Positions 37,935 through 62,950 of a DNA stretch of 64,000 bases are shown here, piece after piece. A model generated the notes under the pieces. That model was not told where the DNA came from. It did no database searches and worked only from the letters and a program-made list of their open reading frames with translations. The stretch's first letter is position 1. Every line of letters begins with the position of its first letter. Origin of the DNA: Candidatus Bathyanammoxibius amoris (GTDB lineage Bacteria; Planctomycetota; Brocadiia; Brocadiales; Bathyanammoxibiaceae); the NCBI GenBank assembly GCA_024451685.1, contig JAMXCW010000001.1, forward strand, positions 62,001 to 126,000, given 5' to 3'. Both the position numbers and the translations under genes were made by a program.

Positions 37935-38321
37935 ATGATAAGAGAGCTAATAGTTTGGCTTAGAGGGCAACTTAGTTCGGTGTTATTGTGGATCTTTGGG
38001 GAGGCTCCCCAGAGAGAAGAGAAAAGAGAAGCCGCCCTAGATAAGGAGATATCAGAAAGAGTTGCCAAAGAGATTGCGCGCCAGGTTGGCAACTTGTCCT
38101 CAAGAGAAGAGATAGGTATAGAACCCGTCAAGCAATGCCCCAAGAAGACCTTAAAGATAAAAACGGGTTACGTGCCGGAGATTCTGGATTTGGAAACGGA
38201 TGGGGAAGATATTCAGACCAATCTGGGAGAGATTAAGGCCATGGAGGAGCAAAGCGGTGACGTTGACTCCAGCCTGAAAGCACTCAAAGAGATGGGCGGG
38301 AAGAATCAGAAGAAAAGCTAG
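37935..38321 (+). CDS. Small protein paired with an actin-like ATPase
   Basis: The 128-residue protein is not recognised. Residues 1-25 are hydrophobic or amphipathic (ELIVWLRGQLSSVLLWIFG) and could bind a membrane. The rest is hydrophilic and helical with many Glu and Lys, including EISERVAKEIARQVGNL and KTLKIKTGYVPEILDLE. CAGGGAAA directly precedes ATG 37935. It ends 55 bp before the actin-like gene on the same strand, so it may be that filament's anchor or adaptor; this is inferred from position only. Confidence 0.6.
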   Translation: MIRELIVWLRGQLSSVLLWIFGEAPQREEKREAALDKEISERVAKEIARQVGNLSSREEIGIEPVKQCPKKTLKIKTGYVPEILDLETDGEDIQTNLGEIKAMEEQSGDVDSSLKALKEMGGKNQKKS

Positions 38322-38376
38322 AATATATTAGTATTGTGGCACATATCCGAATTATTTTTAGCGAGAGGTTATTGGT

Positions 38377-39411
38377 ATGACAAGCATAAACAGAAAAACA
38401 GATTTAAGGGGAAATTCCTTAGGGAAGGGTGTTGACATAGGCACGGCGTTTATTTCCTGTGCGGAACAGAACGGTGACAAGGTGATGTTCAGAAATGAGA
38501 GGGACGCGTTTTTTGAGGTACAATACACCAAGTTTACAAAGAATATGCTGAACAAGGCCGGAGTGAGATATATTAAGAGGGGGGACCATCTCTATGTGGT
38601 AGGCAACTCCGCCCTTGAATTTGCGAACCTGTTCCATAAGGATACCAGACGCCCTCTCAGTCGTGGGGTGATAAACCCGGCAGAAAAAGAATCACTGCCG
38701 ATGATAGAGGTCCTCATTGCCGGCATTGTCGGCAAACCGAGGGTAACCGGCGAGGTGGCTTATTTCTCCGTACCGGGAGCGCCGATAGACGCGGATTTTA
38801 ACTCCATTTATCACGAGAAGGTGCTTCAAAAGTTTCTCGGCAAGCTCGGCTACGACGCCTTCCCCATAAACGAAGGCCAGGCGGTCGTATTAAGCGAGTT
38901 GCATGATGAAGGTTTCTCCGGCCTGGGGCTTTCCTTCGGTGGTGGAATGGTAAACGCATGCCTTAGCTACATGTCTGTCCCCTGCTTCAGCTTCAGTGTG
39001 ACAAAGGCGGGTGACTGGATTGACCAGCAGGTGGCAATGGCCACAAACGAAACCACCAGCCAGATATGCGCCGTAAAGGAGTCTTCCCTGAACCTGAGCA
39101 CGGACATTGCGAAGGACAATACCGAGGACGCCCTTTCCATATATTATAATTACCTCATTGAGTACGTGCTGGAGAACATAAAAGAGGTGTTTGAAAACTC
39201 AAAGGATAGACCCAACCTGAACAATCCGATACCCATAGTGCTGGCGGGAGGTACGACCAAACCCCAGGGCTTCGCGACCAGGTTTACAAGGTTGATGAAG
39301 CAGATAAAACTCCCGTTCCCGGTAAGCAGTGTGAGGATGGCAAGGGAGCCTCTGAAGTCCGTGGCAAAGGGCGCCCTGGTGGCCGCAAGGGCCCACGGTG
39401 AGGAAGACTAA
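38377..39411 (+). CDS. Divergent actin-like ATPase
   Basis: A 344-residue ASKHA-fold protein. Phosphate 1 reads KGVDIGTAFISCA; the connect-1 helix contains INEGQAVVLSEL; phosphate 2 reads GLGLSFGGGMVNACL; the adenosine motif is IVLAGGTTKPQGF. The bulk between (about 60-190) differs from MreB, FtsA and ParM, so it belongs to none clearly. A GAGAGGT site precedes ATG 38377. Paired with a small, possibly membrane-binding protein. A filament-forming role in segregation or cell organisation is inference; a non-polymerising chaperone-like role cannot be excluded. Confidence 0.72.
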   Translation: MTSINRKTDLRGNSLGKGVDIGTAFISCAEQNGDKVMFRNERDAFFEVQYTKFTKNMLNKAGVRYIKRGDHLYVVGNSALEFANLFHKDTRRPLSRGVINPAEKESLPMIEVLIAGIVGKPRVTGEVAYFSVPGAPIDADFNSIYHEKVLQKFLGKLGYDAFPINEGQAVVLSELHDEGFSGLGLSFGGGMVNACLSYMSVPCFSFSVTKAGDWIDQQVAMATNETTSQICAVKESSLNLSTDIAKDNTEDALSIYYNYLIEYVLENIKEVFENSKDRPNLNNPIPIVLAGGTTKPQGFATRFTRLMKQIKLPFPVSSVRMAREPLKSVAKGALVAARAHGEED

Positions 39412-59043: not shown

Positions 59044-60420
59044 ATGGTAGCTGACTATAATGCCTGGTTCCAGTGCTCAAGCGGCTGTGACGAAAGATAC
59101 GAGCTTAACCAGATAGTCTACAGTTGCAGGCAATGTGGAGGGCTTCTGGAAGTAAAACATGACCTGGACAAACTAAAACAGAAAGAGCCCGGCCACTGGA
59201 AGACACTTTTTGAGAAGCGCTACATGCGGACAGAGTGGCCCTATGGCAGCGGTGTATGGGGCAAGAAGGAGCTGGTGTGTCCAAATATAAGGAATGAGAA
59301 CGTCGTTTCTTTATATGAAGGAGGCAGTAATCTTTTCTGGGCAAAACGTTTTGGCGAGGATCTGGGGTTAAAGGACCTGTGGATAAAGCAGTGTGGGAAC
59401 GCCCATACAGGTTCTTTTAAGGACCTTGGGATGACGGTGTTGGTGTCGATGGTCAAGCAGATGATCTCCGAGGGCAAGGGGATACTCGGTGTGGCCTGTG
59501 CGTCGACGGGTGACACTTCTGCCGCGCTTGCGGCTTATTGTGCGGCGGCAGGCATACCGGCAATAGTGTTCCTGCCCAAGGACAAGGTTTCTACCTCTCA
59601 GCTGGTTCAGCCCCTGGCCAATAATGCGTTAACGTTGTCTATCGACACGGACTTTGACGGATGTATGAAACTGGTTCGAGAAACATGTGAAAAGAACAAC
59701 ATATATCTTGCCAACTCCATGAATTCCCTCCGCATAGAGGGCCAGAAGACGATAAGTATAGAAATAGCTCAGCAGTTTGATTGGGAAGTGCCTGACGTGA
59801 TTGTCGTTCCCGGTGGAAATCTGGGGAACGTGACGGCCATAGGCCTGGGGTTCCTTATGATTAGGGAGCTTGGTCTGGTCGACAGGCTGCCCAGGCTGGT
59901 ATGCGCCCAGGCCGAGAGGGCTAATCCCCTCTATCGCAGTTACTTGAAGGGTTTCAAGGAATACAGACCCGTTCAGGCGCAAAAGACCCTTGCCACCGCT
60001 ATTCAGATAGGAGACCCCGTAAGCGTGCATCGTGCAATAAGGGTCTTGAAGAACTTCGAGGGTGTGGTTGAGCAGGCTACGGAGGATGAACTGGCCAATG
60101 CGGCCGCACGTGCCGACCGCAGTGGGCTGTTTAATTGCCCGCACACCGGGGTAGCGCTTGCGGTCTTGATGAAACTGACGGACAGGGGGCTTATAAAGCC
60201 GGAGGACAAGGTTGTGGTAATCTCAACGGCGCACGGGTTGAAGTTTCCGGATTTTAAGATTGGATATCACATGGGAGCACTGGACGGTGTAGAGTCCAGA
60301 TACGCAAACCGTCCTGTAGAGGTTCCCGCCGCCTACGAACCCATTAAGACGGCCATTTTCAAGGCGATTGAACGGGGATGCTACGACCTGCAGCCTTCTC
60401 AGAACAAAGACCTTTCCTAG
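59044..60420 (+). CDS. thrC: Threonine synthase
   Basis: Converts O-phosphohomoserine to threonine with PLP. The N-terminus has a zinc-ribbon-like region ([10 protein letters not shown] ... [10 protein letters not shown]), followed by [12 protein letters not shown] and the PLP Lys in [38 protein letters not shown] and [19 protein letters not shown] are the phosphate-binding loops. 458 residues. Its stop overlaps the convergent gene in a CTAG. Confidence 0.93.
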
Positions 60421-60689
60421 TGGGTGCTTTGCCTGGCGGTCTTTGTCTTTCCCTGATGATGTTCTTCTGTGCCCCTCTCTTTTGCTACCATTTTCCTCTT
60501 TTCCTTTGTTTCTTTGGGTGGATGTTTTGCCAGTTCTTCTTCGAATTTCTTTATTAACTCTGCGTTGTTGAACCCGGAACATCTACCGTGGTGCCACTTG
60601 TCCCTTGGACTCTCGTATATGGCGCAATGGTCACCGAGGTTAAGTTTACAGTCGTTACATTTGCGAACAGGCTTTTGCCACTTTATCAT
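60417..60689 (-). CDS. Small cysteine-containing protein, unknown
   Basis: The 90-residue protein has [32 protein letters not shown], a Cys/His set that could bind zinc or a cluster, then a hydrophilic Lys/Glu tail. It shares a CTAG stop overlap with thrC. The function is unknown. Confidence 0.6.
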
Positions 60690-60955: not shown

Positions 60956-62023
60956 CTATCGCAGTTCTTTCCAGAGGTTATCGGGCATATCGTAGGCCAG
61001 CTTGAGGGCGCCGTCAGCACCTGCGTAAACGGGCTCATCTACCTTGTTGACCTTTCCGCCGCCATACTCCTCAAGCCCTTCCTCCAGAAGACTGCCAAGG
61101 CCCTTTAGCTGGCTCATGCCGCCGGCCAGTATTATATTGTTCCGAATGCGGGACTGGAATTCCGGGTCATATGTAGCTATAAGATTCCCGACGGCCTCAA
61201 TTATGGGTGGCACTATCGCCTTGCAGGCCTGCTTACATTCTTCTGTTATGTCGATTACTCTGGGTCTGCCTTCTACGGGAATCCTGACGACCACCCTGTC
61301 GTTTGTGTCTGAGACAAAGCCGTTTCTTTCCTTTATGTCTCTGGCCATATTGATGGTAAGCTGGGCGTCGGGATGATTCTCCTTTATGAGCTTTAACAGC
61401 AGTTCGTCAACATAGTCCCCGGCGGTGGTAAGCGTTACCTGGTCTCCTTCTTCTGGCAATGCGCCGTGCATCCTGCACAGGTCGACCGTGCCTGCCCCGA
61501 TGTCAATAATCAGGGCGTCGTCCAGCATGTCCAGCCCGTACGCTACCGAGAAGGGTTCCGAGACAACGATGACAGAGTCAACGGCCTCCATGGCCGCTTC
61601 TATCAACGATTGCTTGTTTATTACACTCGCCTGGGCGGGCGCGCCAATAACGGCATAAACCGTTTGCCCGCTTTTGTGCTGAGCCAGCGCTATGGCGTGT
61701 TTAACTATCTCTTTTGCAGCTTCTTTGTATAATTCTATCTCTTCTTCGCTTGCCAGCGTTGAATCGTCAGAATATTTTATTACCCCTTTTTCCAGGGGCC
61801 TTACAAGGTTAAGTGCAAGACGGTGCTTTAACGCCTCAAGCCCAAAGACCAGATCCTTACCCAATAATTTTCTGGAGATATCGTCTTTTGGCCATCCTAC
61901 TACGCTAACCACTGTTTTCCGTATACCGTTACTTGCGGTTATAGAGGCCCTGAAGGTACCCAGGTCCATGCCTACGTACATTACGTTGGGGTCTCTTTCT
62001 TCTGTAACAACCTCTGCCATCAT
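60956..62023 (-). CDS. MamK-like actin filament protein
   Basis: A 355-residue actin homologue that closely resembles magnetosome MamK by eye. Phosphate 1: YVGMDLGTFRASITASNG; then SVVGWPKDDISRKLLGKDLVFG, VIGAPAQASVINKQSL and the Glu-containing VVSEPFSVAYGLDML; phosphate 2: ALIIDIGAGTVDLC; adenosine motif: IILAGGMSQLKGLG; end YDMPDNLWKEL. MamK aligns magnetosomes along the cell; no mamA/B/E/M-type gene is nearby, so the role here is probably another kind of intracellular positioning. It follows the coiled-coil gene by 52 bp in one operon. Confidence 0.85.
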   Translation of the reverse strand: MMAEVVTEERDPNVMYVGMDLGTFRASITASNGIRKTVVSVVGWPKDDISRKLLGKDLVFGLEALKHRLALNLVRPLEKGVIKYSDDSTLASEEEIELYKEAAKEIVKHAIALAQHKSGQTVYAVIGAPAQASVINKQSLIEAAMEAVDSVIVVSEPFSVAYGLDMLDDALIIDIGAGTVDLCRMHGALPEEGDQVTLTTAGDYVDELLLKLIKENHPDAQLTINMARDIKERNGFVSDTNDRVVVRIPVEGRPRVIDITEECKQACKAIVPPIIEAVGNLIATYDPEFQSRIRNNIILAGGMSQLKGLGSLLEEGLEEYGGGKVNKVDEPVYAGADGALKLAYDMPDNLWKELR

Positions 62024-62075
62024 ATAACCTTCCTCCAGGGGAGCACAAAGTGATATTTTGTTACAAAATTCTTAT

Positions 62076-62846
62076 TTATTCCTTTTGTCCTTCTTCCTCG
62101 GCCTTTTGCTTGTGACGCCATTTGATATTGCTTTCCACAAGCTTGTGGAATAAACTCCCTGATTTTATCGCACCAGGGCGCGAAGCAGGGGTTTTTGGTT
62201 GTGACTGGGCAGCGCCTGAAGCGGACACGGTGGGTTGGGGATGGCTGGTTGGTGTGGTTTCACTTTTGCTTACGACGCGAAGGGGATATGTATTATGCGG
62301 GAAACTCTCAATAAGCTGAGTAGGAAGGCTCTCTTTGATATTTTCGAACAGATCGATTGGTATTGTCCCCCTTGCCCCCTCCAGTATATCCTCTACCACC
62401 TGTTGTATCTTTTCCTCGTACTTTTCACTGGTTATTGACGTTTGAGCCCTTGTGCCCCCCTGGAACGCTATCTTCCTCGCGTCCACCTCACTGCGAAGGC
62501 GGGTCATCTCATCCTCAAGTGCCACACACTTCTTTTCTAGCCTTTCCTTCTCGCCGGGAGGCCCTCCCGAGCCCTCCTTAAGTGCCTCCAATTGCTCCGA
62601 CAGGTTCTCTGATTTAATCCGGAGTTCGTCCCTTTCCTTCGATAAGGCCTCAGACCTCTTTTCAAGCCCGTCCTCGACGGCTTTTTGTACGATCTCGTTA
62701 AGCGTCTTCTCGCTAACTACGCGAACCTCGGATAGACCCTGTTTGCGAAAGGCCTTAAGGGGAATGCTCGATACCACCTGATCGATTGCACTTCCTACAA
62801 CAGAAGTACTTTCGTCTGGATAGGAGCCGAAGTGCTCTTTGTACAT
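62076..62846 (-). CDS. Coiled-coil protein in the MamK-like operon
   Basis: The 256-residue protein has a long coiled coil at about 48-135 (SEALSKERDELRIKSENL; EKERLEKKCVALEDEMTRL), a helical segment (EKYEEKIQQVVEDILEGA), a disordered Pro/Ser/Thr/Gln-rich linker (about 195-230) and a basic terminal helix (LVESNIKWRHKQKAEEE). No family is recognised. Transcribed first, it is a plausible adaptor, anchor or length regulator of the actin-like filament; this is inferred from gene order. Confidence 0.7.
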   Translation of the reverse strand: MYKEHFGSYPDESTSVVGSAIDQVVSSIPLKAFRKQGLSEVRVVSEKTLNEIVQKAVEDGLEKRSEALSKERDELRIKSENLSEQLEALKEGSGGPPGEKERLEKKCVALEDEMTRLRSEVDARKIAFQGGTRAQTSITSEKYEEKIQQVVEDILEGARGTIPIDLFENIKESLPTQLIESFPHNTYPLRVVSKSETTPTSHPQPTVSASGAAQSQPKTPASRPGAIKSGSLFHKLVESNIKWRHKQKAEEEGQKE

Positions 62847-62921: not shown

Positions 62922-62950
62922 ATCGTACAATAAACCAAATTCCTTGTCAA
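62922..62950 (-). promoter_or_regulatory. Promoter of the coiled-coil/MamK-like operon
   Basis: Minus strand TTGACA (62950-62945), 17-bp spacer, TACGAT (62927-62922). The leader is about 70 nt. Confidence 0.6.

Follow-up and report, generated by a model that had tools for sequence, protein, structure and literature searches.

A MamK-type actin gene and the gene of a coiled-coil partner form a recurrent pair in Planctomycetota

We found that a MamK-type actin gene and the gene for a coiled-coil protein directly upstream of it recur as a pair across Planctomycetota. We consider it likely that the pair is a two-gene cytoskeletal cassette, in which a MamK-type filament and a co-transcribed adaptor together position or tether something. 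The computed basis for this reading is the gene pairing, the domain architecture, conservation, co-occurrence and the finding of no magnetosome marker genes. The pair lies in a 64,000-nucleotide stretch (the window) from Candidatus Bathyanammoxibius amoris, whose genome (2.07 Mb, 95% complete) was searched for genes family by family. A search of the open-access literature found no description of the cassette. Both open reading frames are on the minus strand, at the positions given in an earlier note on this DNA. The features of the cassette, in window coordinates, are:

60956..62023, minus strand: MamK-family actin-like ATPase, 355 aa, with the DLGT motif at D20
62028..62036, minus strand: ribosome-binding-like sequence GGAGGAAGG just 5' of the actin start, recognised in the sequence
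62076..62846, minus strand: coiled-coil partner, the proposed adaptor, 256 aa
62115..62153, minus strand: C-terminal motif (C-motif) of the partner, LFHKLVESNIKWR, residues 232-244, placed by regular expression and family alignment
62448..62711, minus strand: long helices or coiled coil of the partner, residues 46-133, placed by AF2 and the family heptad signal
62625..62804, minus strand: N-terminal domain (N-domain) of the partner, approximately residues 15-74, placed by an HMM from outside the family, alignments and AF2
62922..62950, minus strand: promoter-like TTGACA-N17-TACGAT upstream of the partner, recognised in the sequence

Judged by its sequence, the window actin is of the MamK type. 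It matched the NCBIfam MamK model (NF040964) over residues 15-354 with 426.9 bits (4.7e-128), clearing the curated cutoff of 400 over the full length of the protein. Scores were below cutoff against the BeeR model (NF053558; 203 bits, cutoff 530) and the NCBIfam MreB model (72 bits, subfamily cutoff 293), and Pfam MreB_Mbl gave 79.6 bits. The nearest solved structures were 5jyg and 5ljv (8e-78), which we take to be MamK of Magnetospirillum AMB-1, far ahead of BeeR (8r2n, 2.6e-39) and MreB (1jce, 2e-13). Both catalytic residues of AMB-1 MamK are kept in the window actin, E143 as E156 and D161 as D174. Conservation of these residues, together with the family, suggests that the window actin polymerises with ATP. 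The earlier note had called the protein MamK-like by eye from four motifs, among them GMDLGTF, VVGWPKD and IIDIGAGT. All four are in the protein, and the searches agree with the call.

Phylogeny placed the window actin outside the MreB branch, with very long branches between the two, and a separate MreB is encoded in the same genome. Neither an MreB nor an Hsp70 placement, either of which would speak against the MamK assignment, was seen. In a tree of 82 actins, those of the window's family formed one group with the f82 cassette actins (98/98), which a second tree recovered as well (SH-aLRT 98). AMB-1 MamK and the MamK of a magnetosome cluster in genome G022 fell outside this group in the free trees, and the window actin is 41-43% identical to the G022 mamK lineage. 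When the window family was forced to join MamK of magnetotactic bacteria, the AU test gave p values of 0.063 and 0.076, on few magnetosome MamK sequences and long branches. Genome G094 has magnetochrome genes; its MamK (locus L182) branches within the non-magnetosome cassette actins (97/94), and its score does not reach the cutoff of the NCBIfam MamK model. Because many planctomycete cassette actins pass this cutoff and the G094 MamK falls below it, the NCBIfam MamK model is not a marker for magnetotaxis.

The partner gene is separated from the actin gene by 52 nt. The TTGACA of its promoter-like sequence is conserved in seven of the eight family members. This conservation and the short spacing support co-transcription, in keeping with the operon proposed earlier. 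A palindrome before the partner gene was considered as a conserved operator and rejected, as the palindrome is not conserved. A gene for a small cysteine-rich PxxKW-like protein (60417-60689) adjoins the cassette and is conserved in the family.

The partner matched no Pfam, NCBIfam or PHROG family above that family's own cutoff. Its full-length AF2 model (mean pLDDT 74, pTM 0.36) has an N-terminal helix, long helices at residues 46-92 and 98-133, shorter helices at 140-157 and 164-181, a disordered stretch at 187-224, and a helix at 232-255 (pLDDT ~93) that holds the C-motif. Summed over 41 partner homologues, the heptad signal (power at period 3.5) was 23.3, compared with 9.2 +/- 1.4 for shuffled sequences; the same test on the window partner alone gave no significant signal. 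The family-wide signal and the long predicted helices bear out the coiled coil that had been read from the sequence earlier. Modelled alone, the N-domain formed three helices (pLDDT 83), whereas the full-length model has two short strands. The two models thus disagree on the fold of the N-domain, and a Foldseek comparison of the N-domain model with the PDB gave no match below E 6.

Sequence comparisons identify the partner as a member of a family spread over Planctomycetota, not a local gene. All eight genomes of the window's family that carry this actin have a homologous gene directly upstream of it. The family partners share both their N-terminal region (PLKxFxKQGLxElxVISxKxLxEL) and a short C-terminal motif, with a helical middle that varies between them. 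Iteration of an N-domain profile gave matches in 42 of 75 MamK-like loci, and these represent many of the phylum's families. Every match was upstream of the actin on the same strand, and no other gene in these loci matched. At one locus (L090) the N-domain gene is more than 1 kb from the actin; it was excluded from later counts, leaving 41 partners. With an N-domain HMM built from outside the family, the window partner was the only significant match in the 64 kb (i-E 7e-10). The earlier note had suggested looking in other planctomycetes for the partner next to MamK-like genes. That search was strongly positive, and the partner gene is present in related genomes, where its complete absence would have spoken against the idea.

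The pairing is not universal: in the MamK clades of f29 and part of f25, no N-domain gene adjoins the actin. One locus (L177; G172:C944) has two tandem N-domain partner genes upstream of a single MamK-like gene. An apparent loss of the cassette in genome G007 was set aside, as its neighbours (threonine synthase and the PxxKW-like gene) are also missing and the absence may be an assembly gap.

The N-domain also co-occurs with actins at the level of whole genomes. Among 393 genomes, 117 carried the N-domain together with a MamK-like actin; the actin occurred without the N-domain in 25 and the N-domain without the actin in 34, and 217 had neither. The N-domain was thus present in 117 of 142 MamK genomes compared with 34 of 251 others; MamK or a second actin, volactin, was present in 147 of the 151 N-domain genomes, and the N-domain in only 4 of 193 genomes without either actin, although the strength of association in these genome counts is overstated because shared ancestry is ignored.

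We found that the type of C-motif follows the type of actin. The MamK-type C-motif (hh..hF..NhxLR) is present in 34 of the 41 N-domain partners beside MamK, where 0.007 would be expected from shuffled tails. It is also found upstream in most loci without a detected N-domain, in genes that were selected by the same pattern. We fetched 20 loci in which the N-domain is away from MamK, and in 12 of these the gene next downstream of the N-domain gene encodes another actin. Pfam identifies this actin as volactin (273-295 bits in the five tested). None of the 12 partners beside volactin has the MamK-type motif; another C-terminal motif is common to them. Three unlinked N-domain proteins do have the MamK-type motif, and their genomes carry MamK elsewhere. 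The C-motif of the window partner is a diverged copy, recognised by regular expression and family alignment and missed by HMMs trained outside the family. A subtype C-motif HMM reached only four of the eight family members (i-E 5e-4 to 0.06).

The window contains a second cassette, of the volactin kind, at 37935-39411, with 55 nt between its two genes:

37935..38321, plus strand: 128-aa protein encoded immediately 5' of the volactin gene; volactin-type C-motif at 38199-38303
38377..39411, plus strand: second actin of the window, volactin family PF25216, 344 aa (323 bits, E 1.4e-96)

With a volactin C-motif HMM made from other genomes, the 128-aa protein was the only significant match in the window (i-E 1.6e-6). 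No N-domain was detected in this protein.

Across Planctomycetota, the N-domain is common to partners of MamK-like and volactin actins. Because the motif type follows the actin type, the simplest reading is that the C-motif selects the actin and that the N-domain has a common role. The tracking of actin type suggests that the C-motif probably docks on its own actin. We propose, tentatively and with less than even confidence, that one modular adaptor family serves several actins: the shared N-domain would hold a common target, and an interchangeable C-motif would pick a MamK-type or a volactin-type filament. On this view, MamK-based positioning of magnetosomes would be a specialised case within an older and more general organisation system of filament and adaptor.

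MamK forms ATP-driven filaments to which MamJ attaches cargo (PMC13052382). Because MamK filaments carry cargo through MamJ, a filament with a tether is the natural model for the cassette. The MamK-type actin would form ATP-driven filaments. The adaptor would comprise the N-domain, a coiled coil that is probably dimeric, a flexible linker and the C-terminal helical motif. This last motif would dock on the filament, and the N-domain would hold a second, common target, which might be a membrane, a cargo or the cell pole. Filament and adaptor could thereby position or tether something along the cell, much as MamK and MamJ do, in cells without magnetosomes.

Neither MamI (NF040963) nor magnetochrome domains (PF18509, the MamE/P/T/X type) were found in the window genome, which fits the earlier remark, given the completeness of the genome, that the actin stands without other magnetosome genes. 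MamI was also absent from the window's family, and among 59 relatives only G022 had it. Magnetochrome was found in 4 of 392 genomes of the phylum.

A magnetosome cluster that looks complete (L041, C33:5000-24000; L131; L132) is present in the Brocadiales genome G022, which also encodes hydrazine synthase alpha. The contig encodes MamI, MamE, a lysine/glutamate-rich protein, MamK, MamM, MamN, MamO, MamP, MamA, MamQ and a MamB-like CDF protein, and the gene order is I, E, a gene in the J position, K, F-like, M, N, O, P, A, Q, R-like, B. Of the models scanned, those for MamI, MamK and the CDF superfamily gave scores above cutoff. The remaining mam genes were assigned by their best match, which fell short of the curated cutoff, and MamB by eye and BLAST only. 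G022 is possibly a magnetotactic anammox bacterium, or the cluster is a binning error. Yet two other genomes of the same family, G020 and G032, have a mamK that is 67-70% identical to that of G022; in both, TPR genes and a lysine-rich, coiled gene lie next to it (L039 and L040). Another planctomycete, G069, has matches to MamE, MamI, CDF, MamO, MamP, MamA and MamQ (L135 and L136) and no MamK-like protein.

Two other readings start from what is known of anammox bacteria and of magnetosomes. Candidatus Bathyanammoxibiaceae is an anammox family (PMC9723696), and hydrazine synthase alpha is present in the window genome, so that the anammox planctomycete host assumed in the earlier note is supported by inference from this gene and from the relatives. 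These points, and the positioning of organelles by MamK filaments (PMC13052382), are consistent with the cassette organising the anammoxosome or its contents, for example nitrite oxidoreductase tubules. However, MamK-like proteins were found in none of 30 sampled Brocadiaceae-like anammox genomes (f5) and none of 13 genomes of genus g7 of f3, groups in which hydrazine synthase is widespread. The cassette actin is also common outside Brocadiales, and 90 of 392 Planctomycetota genomes exceed the MamK cutoff. We therefore consider it unlikely that the cassette serves the anammoxosome specifically, since it is missing from most anammox genomes and present in many planctomycetes that are not anammox bacteria. 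More broadly, as the earlier note proposed, the cassette may organise some membrane compartment. Slightly less probable than an anammoxosome-specific role is a relic of a lost magnetosome cluster, in which a magnetotactic ancestor left only mamK and a MamJ-like linker. The cluster of G022, with mamK in its canonical position, would fit such a history, as would the sister genomes G020 and G032, which retain mamK without MamI (and, in G020, without magnetochrome); the AU test gave no formal rejection. The free trees, however, join the window actin to the f82 cassette actins and not to the G022 mamK lineage, and the window partner has its homologues among the cassette partners, with no likeness to the gene that G022 has between mamE and mamK. 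It is this different partner, together with the lack of MamI and magnetochrome in the window genome, that makes a relic improbable.

An actin with a small adjoining partner is also the arrangement of ParM-ParR-parC systems for DNA segregation, in which the partner would be a DNA-binding adaptor, and there is a weak match to a phage/plasmid partition profile (phrog_691, 1.2e-8). Against this reading, both genes sit in the chromosome among neighbours that are conserved, the palindrome in front of the partner gene lacks conservation, and a search of plasmid records gave no match. An upstream iteron array was absent from the six loci examined, and because there are no iterons we regard a ParM-type role as unlikely. 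We give slightly less credence still to a second cell-shape system, an MreB-like scaffold for wall synthesis. MreB is a relative, as the MreB_Mbl match indicates, but the genome has its own MreB, very distant in the tree, and mreC, mreD and rodA were not recognised by eye among the open reading frames around the cassette.

Our results are most consistent with a filament and its adaptor. MamK has been regarded as a magnetosome protein; in Planctomycetota, a phylum noted for its internal compartments, an actin of this type recurs with its dedicated partner as a stand-alone module. The cassette appears to be a general module of the bacterial cytoskeleton, so far undescribed. It makes a compact prediction that can be tested (C-motif peptide against filament) and could reveal the part that MamK played outside magnetosomes.

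Among known systems, MamK-MamJ of Magnetospirillum has the same actin family and, immediately 5' of mamK, the gene for a linker between filament and cargo. Unlike that system, the cassette comes with no magnetosome genes found, and its partner is a soluble coiled coil with an N-domain and a C-motif; the MamJ-position gene of G022 has no evident similarity to the window partner. The network of Desulfovibrio magneticus RS-1 (MamK, Mad28 and Mad20/23/25/26; PMC12748827) is by its description also a MamK with soluble coiled-coil proteins, but its genes organise magnetosomes. BeeR of Verrucomicrobiota (PMC11929497) is likewise a MamK relative outside magnetotactic bacteria, although the window actin is much nearer MamK (427 compared with 203 bits) and below the BeeR cutoff. 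Volactin (PF25216) is a separate actin family whose partner has a different C-terminal motif, yet in Planctomycetota it too is preceded by a gene with the same N-domain, and the window has a volactin cassette of its own.
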